Part shown: positions 24,202 through 53,911 of the stretch, piece by piece
How the letters are laid out: every line of letters begins with the position of its first letter
How positions within the stretch are numbered: the stretch's first letter is position 1
DNA from: Cloacibacillus sp. An23
Lineage (GTDB): Bacteria; Synergistota; Synergistia; Synergistales; Synergistaceae
NCBI RefSeq assembly: GCF_002159945.1
Contig: NZ_NFJQ01000004.1
Span: 124,001 to 188,000 of the forward strand
DNA: 64,000 bases
Direction: 5' to 3'
Translations under genes and position numbers: made by a program
Notes under the pieces: model-generated
Told to the model about the DNA's origin: nothing
Database searches by the model: none
The model's input: the letters and a program-made list of their open reading frames with translations, nothing else

Positions 24202-25527
24202 ATGACGAATATACTTTCAGGCAAAAAATTTTCGATACACATACAGGGCTGCCGCACGAACCAGTACGAGGGCGAGGCGATTGCCGCGGCCCTCGAGGCG
24301 CACGGCGCGCGGCGCGACGACGAAGCCCCGGACATAATAGTGATAGTAACCTGCGCGATAACGGCGGTCGCGGAGCGCAAGTGCCGCAAGCTAATACGCC
24401 GCGCGCGGCGCGAACATCCAAACGCAGTGACAGCCGCCTGCGGCTGCAGCTCGCAGAAAATATCCGAAAGCGAAGCGGCGGAGCTGGGCCTCGACATAAC
24501 GATAGGCAACAGGGAAAAGCATCTGCTGCCGCACATGATAGTCGAACGGCTAGCGGGCGCGCGGGATATCTATAAAATCAACGAAAACATCATGACCGAC
24601 GCGAGCTGGGATTCGCTCTCGCTAGACAGGCCGAGGCTCCACACGCGCGCGTTCCTCAAGGTGCAGGACGGCTGCGCGCATTTCTGCTCCTACTGCATAG
24701 TCCCTTTCGTGCGCGGCAGGCCGGTTTCGCGCCCGATGGACGAGGCCGTAGACGAGGCGCGGCGCATAACGGAGTCCGGCTGCCCCGAAATCGTGCTGAC
24801 CGGCATACATCTTGGGCTTTACGAAAATCTGCCGGAGCTGGTGCGGCGCATAGGCGCTCTGCCGGAATTGAAGCGGCTGCGCTTCGGCTCGATAGAGCCG
24901 TTTGCAGTGGACGAAGCTCTGCTTTCCGCGCTCGCGGAGACGCCGGCCTTCTGCGAGCATCTGCACATGCCGCTCCAGTCCGGCGACGACGGAGTGCTCG
25001 CCTCCATGCGGCGCGGCTACACGGCCGCGGAGTTCGCAAAAATAGCGGAACGCGCGCGCGCCGCGCTCGGCGACTCGCTGCACATAAGCACCGACCTGAT
25101 GGTCGGCTTCCCTGCGGAGGACGGTGCGGCCTTCCGACGCAGCCTCGACTTCGTGAAGAGCGTGGGCTTCGGCAAAGTCCACGTCTTCCCCTACTCGCCG
25201 CGCAGCGGCACGACGGCCGCTTCGATGACGCCCGTTCCAGACGCCGTTATGAAAGAACGGACGGCGGAGGCTCTCGAGACGGCGGCGGAGCTTCACGAAA
25301 AATTCTGCTCGCGCTGGCTCGGGCGCGAAATAACGATCCTGACCGAGGAGATAAAGGACGGAGCGGCGCGCGGCCTCACGCGCAACTACATACGCGCGGA
25401 GGCCCCCGCGCGCGGCGCGGGCGTGAACGAGGAGCTTTCGCTCACGCCCGCGGGATACCGCGCGGAGACGCTCTTCGCGGCGGAGACGCCGAATGCCGGC
25501 TTCTCCGAGGAAATTTCCGTAATTTGA
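24202..25527 (+). CDS. mtaB: tRNA t6A37 methylthiotransferase (MtaB-like)
   Basis: This 441-residue radical-SAM protein belongs to the MiaB/MtaB family and probably turns t6A into ms2t6A at position 37 of tRNAs reading ANN codons. The N-terminal UPF0004 domain has its three cluster cysteines (IQGCRTNQ, VTCAITAVAERK, AACGC). The radical-SAM motif is CAHFCSYC near residue 160. A C-terminal TRAM-like region (GLTRNYIRAEAP) is also present. The MtaB type is favoured over MiaB and RimO by QGCRTNQYE and CAITAVAERK. GAGG precedes the ATG by a few bases. Confidence 0.9.
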   Translation: MTNILSGKKFSIHIQGCRTNQYEGEAIAAALEAHGARRDDEAPDIIVIVTCAITAVAERKCRKLIRRARREHPNAVTAACGCSSQKISESEAAELGLDITIGNREKHLLPHMIVERLAGARDIYKINENIMTDASWDSLSLDRPRLHTRAFLKVQDGCAHFCSYCIVPFVRGRPVSRPMDEAVDEARRITESGCPEIVLTGIHLGLYENLPELVRRIGALPELKRLRFGSIEPFAVDEALLSALAETPAFCEHLHMPLQSGDDGVLASMRRGYTAAEFAKIAERARAALGDSLHISTDLMVGFPAEDGAAFRRSLDFVKSVGFGKVHVFPYSPRSGTTAASMTPVPDAVMKERTAEALETAAELHEKFCSRWLGREITILTEEIKDGAARGLTRNYIRAEAPARGAGVNEELSLTPAGYRAETLFAAETPNAGFSEEISVI

Positions 25528-25546
25528 CCTGCCGGAGGTGATTTTC

Positions 25547-26392
25547 ATGGAAGTGTCTAAAATTCTCGCCGAATACGACGCGATGCTCGCCGCGGGACGG
25601 CGGCGCGAGGCGGGAGAATTTCTGTCCGAGGCCGCCGACGTCGCGGCGCGCGAGGACGACGCAGTCTCCGAGGCGTCGCTGCGCGGCGAGCTGACGGGCT
25701 ATTGGCGCGTATTCGGCGAGCCGGAAAAGAGCTTCGCTTCGGCGGAGCGGGCGCTCTTTCTGCTCGAATCGCGCGGCCTCGGCGAAAGCGCCGCGTACGC
25801 GACCGCACTCCTGAACTACGCGACTGCGAAAACGGCCTTCCGCATGACGGACGAGGCGCTCGCGCTTTACGGGCGCGTCGCTGAAATTTACGAAAAAACC
25901 GTAGCGCCCGGCGACTACCGATTCGCGAGCCTCTACAACAACATGGCGCAGGCGCTGATGCGCGCGGGGCGCGCGTCGGAGGCGCTGGGATATTTCGAGC
26001 GATCACTCGCGCTGCTCTCGCCGCCGGAAGACGCCGCGGAAATCGCGACCTGCCGCACGAACATGGCCTACTGCCTGACGGCGGAAAAGAAACTCGACGA
26101 GGCGGAGCGTTCGCTCGCGCTCGCCGAAGAGATATATTCCGCGCTGCCTGACGACCCTCACTTGGCGAGCGCGCTGTCGTGCCGCGGACAGCTTTCGTAC
26201 ATACGCGGCGAATACGCGCGCGCGGCCGAATATTTCGCGAAAAGCGCCGAAACGGTAGAACGTTTCTTCGGGCGTACCGCGAACTACGCCGCGGCCTGCC
26301 GGAGCTGCGCAAAGTCGTTCGAGGCCGCCGGCATGGCGGACGAGGCGGCTAAGTACCGCGCGCTCGCGGACGCCGCGCGAGGCGCGAGGTGA
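25547..26392 (+). CDS. Tetratricopeptide repeat protein
   Basis: This protein of about 281 residues is built of TPR-like helical pairs across most of its length (for example LYNNMAQALMRAGRASEALGY, TNMAYCLTAEKKLDEAERS, SCRGQLSYIRGEYARAAEY). It has no signal peptide, membrane segment or other recognised domain, so it is likely a cytoplasmic scaffold or partner-binding protein. The ATG at 25547 has GGAGG 8 bases upstream; a GTG at 25538 overlaps that site and is rejected. It lies 7 bases before a DUF4037 gene and is followed by a DUF4125 gene, which suggests the three products work together. Confidence 0.85.
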   Translation: MEVSKILAEYDAMLAAGRRREAGEFLSEAADVAAREDDAVSEASLRGELTGYWRVFGEPEKSFASAERALFLLESRGLGESAAYATALLNYATAKTAFRMTDEALALYGRVAEIYEKTVAPGDYRFASLYNNMAQALMRAGRASEALGYFERSLALLSPPEDAAEIATCRTNMAYCLTAEKKLDEAERSLALAEEIYSALPDDPHLASALSCRGQLSYIRGEYARAAEYFAKSAETVERFFGRTANYAAACRSCAKSFEAAGMADEAAKYRALADAARGAR

Positions 26393-26399
26393 CGGCGCG

Positions 26400-27314
26400 A
26401 TGAAGGGGCTCGAACTCTGCCGTGAATTTTACGCCAGATGCGCTCGCGATGCGATAAAGGCGCGCTTCGGCGAACGCGCCGGACGAATAGCCGCGGGACT
26501 CGCGGGCGAGGGCTCGGAATGCCTCGGCTTCGACGACGAAATTTCGCGCGACCATGATTTCGGCCCAGGCTTCTGCCTCTGGCTGAGCGACGAGGATTTC
26601 GCTGAGTTCGGCGCGGAGCTGCGGAGCTTCTACGACGGCCTGCCGGCCGAGTTTATGGGCTTCCGCCGAAACTCCACGCCGCAGGGCGCGGCCCGCGTCG
26701 GCGTCATGCGCATAGGCGATTTCTACGCGCGTTTCACGGGCTCGCGCGGAATCCCCGAAAGCGAGGCCGCGTGGCTGCGTATCCCGGAGCATGCGCTCGC
26801 GGCCGCGACGAGCGGCGTGGTCTTCGACGACCCGCCGGGCGAGTTCAGCCGTATCAGGTCGGCGCTGCTTCCCTGTTACCCAGAGGAAGTGCGGCTCAAA
26901 AAGCTCGCGGCGCGCCTCTTCACGATGGCGCAGGCCGGGCAGTACAATTACCCGCGCATGACAAAGCGCGGCGACGCCGCGGCGGCTTCGTTCGCGCTCG
27001 CGGAGTTCGCGAAGGCGGCCTTCTCCGCGCTGCATCTGCTCAACCGCCGCTACGCGCCATACTACAAGTGGCTCTCGCGCAGCGCGCAGGAACTTCCGAA
27101 ATTGTCCGAATCGGCACGCGAGACGGCGGCGCTCTTCGAGCCAGGCGCGGATCGCGAAAATCTTATAGAATCTGTATGCGCGCGCGTGCGCCGCGAACTC
27201 CGCGAAGAGGGGCTCTCGTCGTCCGACGACCCGTTCCTCGTCGCGCAGGCGGTCGAGACGACGCGGCGCATAAAAAGCGAATACCTGCGGAAACTCAGCG
27301 TAACGGTGGGATGA
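26400..27314 (+). CDS. DUF4037 protein with nucleotidyltransferase signature
   Basis: This 304-residue protein matches the DUF4037 family by its block EGSECLGFDDEISRDHDFG and by IPEHALAAATSGVVF. The block also fits the nucleotidyltransferase-fold pattern: G38-S39, then 11 residues, then D51-H52-D53. This predicts a metal-dependent NMP-transferring or related enzyme. The C-terminal part is helical (KLAARLFTMAQAGQYNYPRM). The biological function of the family is not known to me. It sits between the TPR gene and the DUF4125 gene; its stop is 2 bases from the preferred start of the latter. Confidence 0.85.
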   Translation: MKGLELCREFYARCARDAIKARFGERAGRIAAGLAGEGSECLGFDDEISRDHDFGPGFCLWLSDEDFAEFGAELRSFYDGLPAEFMGFRRNSTPQGAARVGVMRIGDFYARFTGSRGIPESEAAWLRIPEHALAAATSGVVFDDPPGEFSRIRSALLPCYPEEVRLKKLAARLFTMAQAGQYNYPRMTKRGDAAAASFALAEFAKAAFSALHLLNRRYAPYYKWLSRSAQELPKLSESARETAALFEPGADRENLIESVCARVRRELREEGLSSSDDPFLVAQAVETTRRIKSEYLRKLSVTVG

Positions 27315-27316
27315 CG

Positions 27317-27934
27317 ATGAAAGAACTGATAAAAGAGATAATCGCGCTCGAATGGGCGTTCTTCGACAAGGTGCAGAACGAAGGCGGACGCGCGGACTGC
27401 CAGGACGACTTCCGGACGTTCGAGATAATGCGCGGCAGCCAGTACGAGGCGTGGGACGAAGCGACGCTCGAAAGCTGGCGCGACGACCTCGAGGCGGCGA
27501 AGGCCGAAGGGCGCAACCCGCTCGCGGAGAAATACGGCTACATGATGATCATAGACGCGCCGGAGGAAAACCGCGCGCTCGCCGCGATGCTGCCGCCCGT
27601 CTCCGAAGAAAAGAAAAATCTCGCGCGGGAGATAACGAAACGGCTCGCGCCGCAGAACGCTGCCTTCGCCGCCCGTTACCCTCTTCTCGCCGCTCACGCG
27701 CGCCCGCTCAGCGGAGCGGGCGGCGAGTGTACGTCGATAGAGACCTATCAGACGGGCGAGCTCTGGACATATTCAGAGCGCACGCTACGGCTGCTCGCCG
27801 CGCGAGTGTCGGAGCTCGAAGCGCGCGGCGAGAGCTACGCGGAGCTCGTCATAGAAAACGGCCTCAAACGCCGCGGCTTCGCAGGACTCGCGCACGCGGA
27901 AGAAATTCTTAGAACGCGGCGGGCCGGCGATTAA
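27317..27934 (+). CDS. DUF4125 family protein
   Basis: This 205-residue protein belongs to the uncharacterised DUF4125 family, recognised by EIIALEWAFFDKVQNEGGRADCQDD, FEIMRGSQYEAW and EKYGYMMI. It has no membrane segment and no known catalytic motif. Two in-frame ATGs occur; the one at 27317 has GGTGGG at workable distance, while the ATG at 27311 overlaps the previous stop. It ends the TPR-DUF4037-DUF4125 unit. I cannot assign a function. Confidence 0.82.
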   Translation: MKELIKEIIALEWAFFDKVQNEGGRADCQDDFRTFEIMRGSQYEAWDEATLESWRDDLEAAKAEGRNPLAEKYGYMMIIDAPEENRALAAMLPPVSEEKKNLAREITKRLAPQNAAFAARYPLLAAHARPLSGAGGECTSIETYQTGELWTYSERTLRLLAARVSELEARGESYAELVIENGLKRRGFAGLAHAEEILRTRRAGD

Positions 27935-50049: not shown

Positions 50050-50963
50050 CGATGCATTCCTCCGGCGACGAGGCACGATAGCGCGATGGCGTTGAACTTC
50101 GTCTCGTGGTCGTCTGTACGCGACACGAGGATTATCGGGGCTTTCGCTCCGAGGACGACGCCAGCCGACTTCGCGTGACAGTAGTGGATGAGCGTCTTGC
50201 AGTGGACGTTGCCGCACTCGATGTCCGGCACTATCGTGAGGTCCACCTTGCCGGCGATGACGCTCTTTATCCCCTTGCGTTCGGCGGCCTCTTTCGAAGC
50301 CACTACGTCTATCGCCATCGGCCCCTCTATAGTGCAGGTGCAGGGCAGTCCGTCGAACTCCCCTTCGCGCCACGCCTCGACGAGCGCCGCCGCGTCCACG
50401 GTCGCCGGCATGTCGGGGTTGACGCGCTCGTTCGCCGCCAGTATCGCGACGTTGACGTGCTCGTAGCCGAGCGCGTGAATCGCGCGCAGAGAGTTCGCGA
50501 TTATATGCTTTTTCTCTTCGAGAGTCGGCGCGATGATGAAGCCGCTGTCGGCACAGAATGACAGATGATGCTCGCCCGGTATCTCGAGCACCGCAAGATG
50601 GCTCAGCATCCGCCCTGTGCGCAGGCCGTTCTCCCTGTCGAGCACGGCGCGCAGAAAGTCCTCCGTGTTGACGAGCCCTTTCATCAGAGTGTGCCCCGAG
50701 CCCTCGCGCACTATGGAGACGGCTTTGCGCACCGCCTCCGCCGGAGCGTCCGCGTGGACGACCTCCGCGCGCGCCCCTACGCCGAACTCCTCCATCGCGG
50801 GGCGTATCACGCCCTCGTCGCCGACGAGCACCGCGTGACCGAGGCCGTGGTCGAAGGCGAGCTTTATCGCCTCGACGGTCTCCCTGTCGGCGGAAGCCGC
50901 GACGACGTTGCTGCCTCCGAGGCAGCCGCAGCAGTTTATCATTTCGTCGAAAGTCTTATACAA
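50043..50963 (-). CDS. ptb: Phosphate butyryltransferase
   Basis: This protein of about 306 residues belongs to the phosphotransacetylase/phosphotransbutyrylase family and turns an acyl-CoA into an acyl phosphate. Typical blocks are LMKGLVNTEDFLRAVL, LSHLAVLEIPGEHHLSFCADSG and the C-terminal LGAKAPIILVSRTDDHETKFNAIAL. The start is a TTG at 50963, since GGAGGG lies just inside the longer frame beginning at the TTG at 50978. Both ptb and buk thus begin with TTG. Its real substrate may be isobutyryl-, isovaleryl- or phenylacetyl-CoA, given iorAB nearby. Confidence 0.93.
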   Translation of the reverse strand: MYKTFDEMINCCGCLGGSNVVAASADRETVEAIKLAFDHGLGHAVLVGDEGVIRPAMEEFGVGARAEVVHADAPAEAVRKAVSIVREGSGHTLMKGLVNTEDFLRAVLDRENGLRTGRMLSHLAVLEIPGEHHLSFCADSGFIIAPTLEEKKHIIANSLRAIHALGYEHVNVAILAANERVNPDMPATVDAAALVEAWREGEFDGLPCTCTIEGPMAIDVVASKEAAERKGIKSVIAGKVDLTIVPDIECGNVHCKTLIHYCHAKSAGVVLGAKAPIILVSRTDDHETKFNAIALSCLVAGGMHRC

Positions 50964-51008
50964 AGAACAGCCCTCCAATCGTTGGGGACGCCGGGCCGAG
51001 GCCCGGTG

Positions 51009-51036
51009 TTGTGAAAAAATTATACTATACTATAAT
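51009..51036 (+). promoter_or_regulatory. Promoter of the MATE transporter genes
   Basis: TTGTGA (51009-51014) and a perfect TATAAT (51031-51036) are 16 bases apart. Tandem TATAC-like steps precede the -10. Confidence 0.7.
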
Positions 51037-51078
51037 GTACAGCGTCTGCGCGCGCCGCGCGGCGATGGAGGCGGCTTA

Positions 51079-52482
51079 ATGGGTTTTATGAAAAACGCGA
51101 AAGGGATATTTTTTCACAGAGGTCCCGTCGATCTCGGCGGCGGGCACGTGCTTCAGTCGCTCGCTCGCCTCTCCGTACCCTCTATCGGAATGGTGCTCTT
51201 CCAGACGCTCTTCAACCTCGTAGACACTATTTTCATCTCGTGGCTCGGCGAGAGCCACATGGTCGCTATCTCGTACACATTTCCCGTGCAGATAGGAGTC
51301 TTCGCCCTGCTCGAAGGCGTCGGCAACGGCGTGACCGCGCTCGTAGGCCGCAGGCTCGGCGAGAGCGACATCGAGCTCGCGCGTAAGACCGCGCGCTTCG
51401 GCCTCGCATTCTCCTACGTCCTGAGCCTCGTGTGGCTTCCTTTTTTATTCCCCGGCCCGTCGAACGCTTTCTTCTCCATGCTCGGAGCCTCCGACCCTGA
51501 GACGCTGCGCCAGGCGTGGCTCTACAATATGTGGATTCCGCCGATGACCTTCGTCATAAGTTTCACCTACATCGTCAATTCCATATTCCGCTGTCAGGGC
51601 GACACGATGACTCCGCTGCGCTTCTTCGTCGTCGCGAACGGGCTGAACTTCGTACTCGACCCGCTGTTTATATTCGTCTTCGGCTGGGGCATGACCGGCG
51701 CGGCCGCGGCGACCTTCATCGGGCGCGTCGCGGGCGCCGTCTACCTTATAAAAAAGATGCGCCGCGGCAGCGCGATACAGATACCGCTCTTCGTCCGCCC
51801 GCGCCGCGAAATGCTGCCGGTATGGCGCGCGGTCGCGGCGATCGGCCTGCCCGTGACGCTCTCGACCGGAAGCGTCGCTCTCGGCATGGGCTCGGTCAAC
51901 CGCGTGCTCACCGAGGCATACGGCAACGTCGCGATAGCGGGCTGGATGATCTCGCTGCGCATCGAGGACCTCGCCTTCGGCACGCTGATGGGCGTCAGCA
52001 ACGCGCTCGTCCCCTTCATCGCCTTCAACTACGGGCGGCGCAGCTTCGCGAGGATAAAAGAAGGAATACGCGCGGCGTTTGTGATATGCTGCTGCGTCAC
52101 GCTCACGATCTGCTTCCTGCTCGCGCTGTACCCGTGGCCCGCGATAGGGCTCTTCCGCCCGTCGCCAGATGTCGCGCACGCGGCGGTGCGCTCTCTGCGC
52201 ATCACGATGGCGGGCTATCCGTTCGCGATGTACGGAATGATATACAACGCGCTCTTCATCGCCGCCGGCAGCTCCGTCTACGGTTTTATCGTGCAGATGG
52301 GCAGATGTATGTTCTTCCGCCTGCCGATGGCTTGGTTCCTCGCCGCGACCGTCTCGATGAGCTGGGTATGGCTCTTCCAGCCGCTCTCGTTCCTCTGCGC
52401 CGCAGTCATGACATTCGCCTTCGCCGCAACGCTTATGAAAAAGCTTAAAAAAGAGCTCGCCGGCCCCCTAAGCGCGGAATAA
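51079..52482 (+). CDS. MATE-family efflux transporter (first)
   Basis: This 467-residue protein has 12 spans in two MatE repeats and exports cationic or other drugs in exchange for sodium or protons. Repeat starts are SLARLSVPSIGMVLFQTLFN and ALGMGSVNRVLTEAYG, with LVDTIFISWLGESHMVAISY early and IVNSIFRCQGDTMTPL, a family signature. The ATG at 51079 has GGAGG 7 bases before it; the longer frame upstream is not real. A second, distinct MATE gene follows after 37 bases. Confidence 0.93.
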   Translation: MGFMKNAKGIFFHRGPVDLGGGHVLQSLARLSVPSIGMVLFQTLFNLVDTIFISWLGESHMVAISYTFPVQIGVFALLEGVGNGVTALVGRRLGESDIELARKTARFGLAFSYVLSLVWLPFLFPGPSNAFFSMLGASDPETLRQAWLYNMWIPPMTFVISFTYIVNSIFRCQGDTMTPLRFFVVANGLNFVLDPLFIFVFGWGMTGAAAATFIGRVAGAVYLIKKMRRGSAIQIPLFVRPRREMLPVWRAVAAIGLPVTLSTGSVALGMGSVNRVLTEAYGNVAIAGWMISLRIEDLAFGTLMGVSNALVPFIAFNYGRRSFARIKEGIRAAFVICCCVTLTICFLLALYPWPAIGLFRPSPDVAHAAVRSLRITMAGYPFAMYGMIYNALFIAAGSSVYGFIVQMGRCMFFRLPMAWFLAATVSMSWVWLFQPLSFLCAAVMTFAFAATLMKKLKKELAGPLSAE

Positions 52483-52519
52483 AACCAAAAACGTCAACAA
52501 GCTCGGAGATGGACAAGAA

Positions 52520-53911
52520 ATGATACGACACGCCATAAAAAAGGTCGATCTCGGAAAAGACCCGATAAGGCCGCTGCTGTTCAAACTCGCCGCACCGGCG
52601 ATAACGTCGCAGGTCGTCAACGCGCTCTACAACGTCGTCGACCGCATGTACATCGGACACATCCAGGGAGAAGGCGCTGCGGCTCTGACCGGGCTCGGCG
52701 TATGTTTCCCGCTCATCATGCTCATATCGGCCTTCGCGAACCTCATCGGCATGGGCGGCGCGCCGCGCGCGAGCATACTCATGGGCCACGGCGACGAAAA
52801 GGGCGCGGAGCGCATACTCGGCAGCTGCTTCACCGCGCTCGTAGCCGTCTCCGTCGTCCTCACCGCTTTCTCGTTCGCCTTCATGCGCCCGCTGCTCACG
52901 CTCTTCGGCGCGAGCGGCGCGACCATCGGCTACGCGACGGACTACATGGAGATTTACGCCGCCGGGACTATCTTCGTGCAGCTTACGCTCGGCATGAACG
53001 TTTTCATAACGGCGCAGGGCTTTGCCAAGATCAGCATGATGACGGTCATTATCGGCGCGGCGATAAACATTGTGCTCGACCCGATATTCATCTTCGTCTT
53101 CGACATGGGCGTGCGCGGCGCGGCGTGGGCGACGGTGATCTCGCAGGCGGTCAGCGCCGCGTGGGCGCTGTGGTTCCTCTGCGGGGAACGCGCCGTGCTG
53201 AAGCTGCGGCGCTGCAACATGCACCCCTCGCGCGCAGTCATAACGCCGTGCGTCGCGCTCGGCTTCGCTCCGTTCGTAATGCAGTCAACCGAGAGCCTGC
53301 TCCTGCTCTCCTTCAACTCGTCTCTGCTGAAATACGGAGGCGACGCCGCGGTCGGAGCCATGACGATTGCGTCGAGCGTGATGCAGTTCGCCATGCTTCC
53401 CGTGCAGGGGCTCACGCAGGGCTCGCAGCCGATAATAAGCTACAACTACGGAGCCGGGAACCCGGAGCGCATGAAGCAGGCGTTCGTCATACTTCTGAAG
53501 TCGTGCCTCGCCTGCACCGCCGTACTGTGGGCCGTGTGCGTGTTCTGCCCGGGAGTATTCGTCCGCATATTCACCGACGACCCTGAGCTTGCCGCGTCGG
53601 CCTGCCGGGCGCTGCGCATCTACATGGCCGGCATCGGCGTATTCGGCGCGCAGACGGCATGCCAGCAGACCTTCATCGCCCTCGGAAATTCAAAGACGTC
53701 GTCGTTCCTAGCGATGCTGCGCAAGATCATCCTGCTCATACCGCTCATCTACATACTGCCGCATTTCTTCGACGACAAGGTCTTCGCCGTCTTCCTCGCG
53801 GAGCCGGTCGCCGACGTCATAGCAGTAACGACGACGGCGACGCTCTTCAGCCGCGAATTCCGCCGGCTGCTGCGCTCTATGGAGAGCGGCGCGGAACTTC
53901 GGAACTATTGA
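52520..53911 (+). CDS. MATE-family efflux transporter (second, MepA-like)
   Basis: This 463-residue MATE protein is of the MepA/NorM-like branch. It has NVVDRMYIGHIQGEGAAALT in the first span, MNVFITAQGFAKISMMTVII and GQGLTQGSQPIISYNYGAG-like text (VQGLTQGSQPIISYNYGAG). It differs strongly from the first MATE protein and belongs to another subfamily, so this is not a recent tandem duplication. The two genes are probably cotranscribed. A promoter for the next unit overlaps its stop codon. Confidence 0.93.
   Translation: MIRHAIKKVDLGKDPIRPLLFKLAAPAITSQVVNALYNVVDRMYIGHIQGEGAAALTGLGVCFPLIMLISAFANLIGMGGAPRASILMGHGDEKGAERILGSCFTALVAVSVVLTAFSFAFMRPLLTLFGASGATIGYATDYMEIYAAGTIFVQLTLGMNVFITAQGFAKISMMTVIIGAAINIVLDPIFIFVFDMGVRGAAWATVISQAVSAAWALWFLCGERAVLKLRRCNMHPSRAVITPCVALGFAPFVMQSTESLLLLSFNSSLLKYGGDAAVGAMTIASSVMQFAMLPVQGLTQGSQPIISYNYGAGNPERMKQAFVILLKSCLACTAVLWAVCVFCPGVFVRIFTDDPELAASACRALRIYMAGIGVFGAQTACQQTFIALGNSKTSSFLAMLRKIILLIPLIYILPHFFDDKVFAVFLAEPVADVIAVTTTATLFSREFRRLLRSMESGAELRNY

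Follow-up and report, generated by a model that had tools for sequence, protein, structure and literature searches.

A TPR–DUF4037–DUF4125 gene unit of anaerobic bacteria with a nucleotidyltransferase-like protein, and glycyl radical enzyme genes enriched near DUF4125

Three tightly packed genes in Cloacibacillus

The window analysed here is a 64,000-nt stretch of the genome of Cloacibacillus sp. An23. Three genes without an assigned role, all on the + strand, are tightly packed at positions 25547–27934, and we could confirm the order TPR, DUF4037, DUF4125 given by the first-pass annotation. The first gene (25547..26392, +) encodes a TPR protein of 281 aa (P0001; TPR_12, E 7.9e-17), the second (26400..27314, +) a DUF4037 protein of 304 aa (P0002; PF13228, E 7e-37) and the third (27311..27934, +) an all-helical DUF4125 protein of 207 aa (P0003; PF13526, E 9.4e-61). 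All three matches lie far above the Pfam cut-offs, with 126.7 bits against a curated 22.1 for P0002 and 205.4 bits against 25 for P0003. That of PF13228 is confined to residues 125–225 of P0002 (26772..27074, +), where the helical C-terminal part begins. Since only 7 nt separate P0001 from P0002 and the genes of P0002 and P0003 overlap by 4 nt (ATGA), the three are probably co-translated. Searches of NCBIfam, PADLOC and PDB sequences returned no name for P0002 or P0003.

An mtaB-type methylthiotransferase gene (window 24202–25547) stops ~19 nt upstream of the TPR gene. The order mtaB–module–yqeY, with yqeY downstream, recurs in just one of the Synergistota loci compared, that of the sister genus Candidatus Caccocola (L013), and a functional link to either neighbour was dropped for this reason. 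Elsewhere in the window, two consecutive MATE-like transporter reading frames begin in 50908–52520 (+).

Conservation, linkage and frequent fusion of the three genes

Scanning 84,980 species genomes with a DUF4125 alignment gave 80 loci, mostly in Clostridia but also in Synergistota, Negativicutes, Coriobacteriia and Desulfovibrionaceae; two further DUF4125-bearing MAGs among the 80 are labelled Bacteroidales/Bacteroides. Presence within Synergistota is patchy (10/151 genomes). DUF4037 was found in the same locus in 65/80 cases. In 20/80 loci DUF4037 and DUF4125 are fused to each other, and 18 of these 20 fusions also include the TPR domain, giving TPR-NTase-DUF4125 (NTase, nucleotidyltransferase). 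We also scored an even sample of 196 Clostridia genomes for DUF4125 and for a strong DUF4037 match: the former occurred in 8, the latter in 18 and both in 7, where they were always linked. DUF4037 was thus present in 7/8 genomes with DUF4125 compared with 11/188 others (Fisher P 1.2e-7).

A TPR gene or fused TPR domain lies immediately upstream of most DUF4037 and/or DUF4125 genes in the relatives. It usually stays directly upstream when DUF4037 occurs without DUF4125, and is often retained when DUF4125 occurs without DUF4037. This retention indicates that the TPR protein is the common partner of both, and that the NTase and DUF4125 could each be used alone with it. The first-pass annotation had named absence of the gene pair from other genomes as grounds for abandoning its proposal; the survey found the set conserved, linked and often fused, and by this gene linkage TPR–DUF4037–DUF4125 is a real bacterial unit spanning several phyla.

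Some loci depart from the usual arrangement. The operon order seen elsewhere is not kept in Desulfovibrio (L037, L071), where DUF4037 and DUF4125 are encoded on opposite strands and their 5' ends abut or overlap. One genome (G159) carries a second, divergent DUF4125–DUF4037 pair (L170) as well as a DUF4125–TPR pair adjoining a glycyl radical enzyme (GRE) activase (L042). The triple-fusion gene of L036, L060, L077 and L023 has immediately upstream of it, in the same orientation, genes for a SufB/D-like protein (306 aa, assigned by eye) and an ABC ATPase. Recurrent neighbours of the MATE, ABC and alcohol dehydrogenase types were set aside; they keep largely to single branches and therefore probably reflect inherited gene order.

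A nucleotidyltransferase-like fold in the DUF4037 protein

AlphaFold2 gave a confident model of P0002 (64 sequences; pLDDT 95, pTM 0.91), in which a core of helices and strands leads into a helical bundle. The leading structural matches in the PDB were all NTases (3c18, ANT(4''), kanamycin nucleotidyltransferase (KNT) and LinB, with HalB lower), so that the comparison with nucleotidyltransferases proposed by the first-pass annotation came out in its favour. The best Foldseek E-value was a modest 3.5e-3 and TM-scores reached only 0.4–0.5, which places the match at superfamily level, and a DUF4037 family profile run against PDB sequences yielded chance matches only. In three other Clostridia proteins (L123, L124, L126) the DUF4037 domain sits C-terminal of Pfam Polbeta/NTP_transf_2. 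From model and sequence we are confident that the DUF4037 protein has an NTase-like fold, with an N-terminal NTase domain and a helical C-terminal domain.

This part of the finding is less hidden than it had been taken to be. The available text of Anantharaman et al. 2013 (PMC3710099) places DUF4037 at the C terminus of aminoglycoside-type NTases as a HEPN-like domain ('Aminoglycoside_NT_C') and already records its TPR fusions. The NTase fold behind the earlier signature is hence supported, while the link itself has been partly known, by implication, since that work.

The signature reads exactly as first claimed: G38-S39 (26511..26516, +), then 11 residues, then D51-H52-D53 (26550..26558, +), the predicted metal-binding pair. 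Taken alone the pattern is weak evidence, as G[SG]x9-13[DE]x[DE] is present in 25% of shuffled P0002 sequences. We nevertheless count it as real because G38, S39, D45, D46, S49, D51, H52 and D53 are all unchanged in 69/69 family members, that is, in every aligned relative that covers the signature region.

The DUF4037 protein thus has both the fold and the G[GS]-x(9-13)-D-x-D site of the Pol-beta-like superfamily. The superfamily's third metal-binding acid, which canonical NTases bear on the following strand, is replaced. In P0002 the strand that follows the DHD site (model residues 101–104) comes after R-V and reads G-V-M. At its position 101 (26700..26702, +), 65 of the 71 family members scored there have Gly and the other 6 have Ser; all aligned relatives without DUF4125 have Gly. 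L124 (...DIDIIYL...), which carries Pfam Polbeta/NTP_transf_2, and L138 (...RRVDWIY...) have Asp at the matching place. The assignment was made from the strand in the predicted model and by-eye comparison with L124 and L138 rather than by structural superposition, and since an hhalign comparison with L124 aligned the C-terminal part alone, the argument rests on the strand pattern. Read in this way from alignment and model, Gly or Ser in place of the third catalytic acid throughout the DUF4037 family is a new observation, and it makes nucleotide transfer by the protein doubtful.

A helical DUF4125 protein without a structural relative in the libraries searched

The P0003 model was also confident (pLDDT 94.4, pTM 0.90) and all-helical. 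Foldseek found no match for it in the PDB (best E 3.0) or BFVD (best E 1.3), and a profile search of DUF4125 against PDB sequences found nothing; as modelled, the fold is thus without a structural relative in these two libraries. A TorD-like or other known helical fold was rejected because neither profile nor structure matched in the PDB. Fourteen residues do not vary among the 80 members (E14, C30, Q31, F37, D59, N69, E73, K74, Y75, M79, P124, R131, Y146 and E150), which suggests a candidate active or binding site. A literature search for a described function of DUF4125, GRE-linked or other, returned mentions only.

Glycyl radical enzyme genes near DUF4125

As the background for 50 DUF4125 loci with long flanks we took the GREs of the same genomes, which amount to 174 Gly_radical matches in 140 Mb. 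A GRE was found near DUF4125 in 11/50 loci against 0.85 expected (Poisson P 2e-9). One of the 11 (L090) is a 74-residue fragment; without it and one of two related microcompartment loci, P is still about 1e-7 by estimate. GRE was chosen after about 23 neighbour clusters had been looked at, so the P is post hoc, yet it lies far below any correction for 23. Two control families taken through the same procedure were not enriched (ETF-alpha, 1 against 0.49 expected; aminotransferase, 2 against 3.5).

Two more GRE loci (L146, L147) came from genomes picked solely for having DUF4125, and with them counted the neighbouring GREs form at least seven groups at ≤39% identity. On the DUF4125 tree, many inner branches of which are weakly supported, the GRE label needs 11 changes. 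Spacing along the same strand supports the link in L027, L079, L030, L046, L062 and L083, and several loci resemble single operons. Operon-like strings in L030, L046, L027, L062 and L083 join the module to a GRE and its activase, or else to MerR, aldehyde dehydrogenase and shell proteins of a microcompartment. Linkage to a GRE or GRE activase also occurs where DUF4037 is missing (L039, L042, L089, L147). No GRE lies within 8 kb of the 16 DUF4037-only loci, a weakly informative result as only about 0.3 would be expected from background, and about 80% of DUF4125 loci likewise have none within 8 kb. An independent case comes from a limonene degrader: lrcL (DUF4125) and lrcM (DUF4037) stand behind bssE in the ring-cleavage operon, and both are expressed (PMC12583861).

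Neither the window nor any other Synergistaceae locus that was fetched has a GRE close to the module; GRE neighbours in Synergistota were limited to two genomes, both outside Synergistaceae. The genome of the window has two GREs, one about 107 kb from the module and the other on another contig. As none is nearby, any GRE-related role in this lineage would presumably be exerted in trans, unless the module serves something else. Overall, proximity to GREs far beyond chance suggests that the module acts in anaerobic metabolism as an accessory or regulator of a new kind.

Discussion

Most likely the module is a complex that uses nucleotides in a regulatory or accessory role in anaerobic metabolism. 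We give a probability of roughly 40% to the more specific reading that it regulates anaerobic catabolic enzymes through an NTase that transfers a nucleotide to protein. The products of the three genes would work in anaerobic bacteria as a single functional unit. Its TPR protein would be a scaffold or receptor able to pair with either of two partners and to recruit the target. The DUF4037 protein would be a two-domain enzyme of the kanamycin-NTase type whose GS...DHD site is predicted to bind metal-nucleotide; once recruited by the TPR protein it would transfer the nucleotide, probably AMP, to a protein target, or might only sense it. DUF4125, which is compact, helical and rich in invariant polar residues, may be a second effector tied to anaerobic radical enzymes. 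The whole would tune or service enzymes of anaerobic catabolism, notably GREs; in the window's lineage, where the unit stands apart from any GRE, it would presumably do so in trans. The first-pass idea of a protein- or RNA-modifying system with TPR and helical partners is partly supported: it holds for the fold and the linkage, while the catalytic triad turned out to be incomplete. The first-pass annotation had overlooked the association with GREs and the lack of structural matches for DUF4125.

The replaced acid bears most directly on whether anything is transferred at all. The DUF4037 protein could be a pseudo-nucleotidyltransferase that binds without transferring, the unit then being a nucleotide- or energy-sensing switch whose TPR protein relays the state to DUF4125 or others. 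Loss of the third acid in 71/71 members beside an invariant GS and DHD nucleotide-metal site speaks for this, but full invariance of DHD and the adjacent D45-D46 goes beyond what binding alone usually demands, and D45 or D46 might supply the third ligand; we consider a mere switch rather unlikely. The same missing acid counts against a small-molecule NTase acting in detoxification or drug inactivation with the exporters that neighbour some loci. The nearest solved folds are indeed aminoglycoside and lincosamide NTases, and a MATE exporter lies downstream of the module in 8 loci. Those exporter genes, though, are mostly confined to a single branch of the DUF4125 tree, and an ever-present TPR partner and triple fusions would be out of character for drug-modifying enzymes, which makes such a role quite improbable.

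The other two alternatives turn on the helical partner. DUF4125 and TPR might together be an assembly, protection or reactivation factor, chaperone-like, for GREs and perhaps other oxygen-sensitive enzymes, with the NTase as its regulator. Linkage to GRE or activase does track DUF4125 even without DUF4037, the 0/16 count for DUF4037-only loci fits, the varied GRE subfamilies argue for a general role, and lrcL/lrcM come after bssE, a GRE activation chaperone (PMC12583861). Set against this are the weak information in that 0/16, the majority of loci without a nearby GRE, and the lack of any Foldseek resemblance between DUF4125 and solved helical folds, those of known chaperones among them; on balance we hold it to be unlikely. 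A toxin-antitoxin or anti-phage system related to MntA/HepT could be read into an NTase fold beside a small helical partner and into the HEPN-like C-terminal domain proposed for DUF4037 in the available text of PMC3710099. We found no conserved His column, and so no Rx4-6H RNase motif, in the DUF4037 C-terminal domain, and no HEPN structural match for DUF4125 in the PDB with Foldseek; an HEPN RNase was rejected on the missing His. PADLOC profiles of known anti-phage systems matched neither P0002 nor P0003, and no relative was found in 2.9 million viral contigs, so a defence or mobile-element role was rejected too. A kinship of this sort is highly improbable, and the MntA-type comparison drawn in the first-pass annotation fails.

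GREs drive the breakdown of choline, propanediol, hydroxyproline and hydrocarbons in gut and sediment anaerobes, and to our knowledge few GRE helpers or regulators have been described besides the activases. A conserved unit tied to many GRE subfamilies is a concrete candidate for one, and it includes a protein without a structural relative in the libraries searched. As a tentative idea, to which we lend limited credence, DUF4125 could be a new GRE accessory family with a fold unseen in solved structures; together with a TPR receptor and a modified NTase it would control GRE activation, protection or shutdown across anaerobes. The DUF4037 family is also a place to ask whether an NTase fold without the third acid still transfers nucleotides.

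Among known systems, MntA/HepT shares an NTase-fold protein with a helical partner, and differs in the HEPN partner and HEPN RNase motif that the DUF4037 module lacks. The kanamycin/ANT(4'') and LinB NTases (PDB 1kny, 6un8, 3jyy) and 3c18, the best structural matches of the DUF4037 protein, have the same succession of NTase and helical domains and the GS...DxD site. Identity to them is about 10–16%, and the DUF4037 protein is set apart by Gly/Ser at the third acid, its fixed TPR and DUF4125 partners and the extra invariant D45-D46. The 'Aminoglycoside_NT_C' HEPN family is the same domain, C-terminal to an NTase and with TPR fusion; the available text of PMC3710099 makes no mention of DUF4125 and does not describe the three-gene unit or the GRE link. 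For LrcL (DUF4125) and LrcM (DUF4037), PMC12583861 leaves the function open and the setting is a catabolic operon, unlike that of the window; the likeness lies in the same adjacent, expressed pair, there adjoining a GRE activation chaperone.
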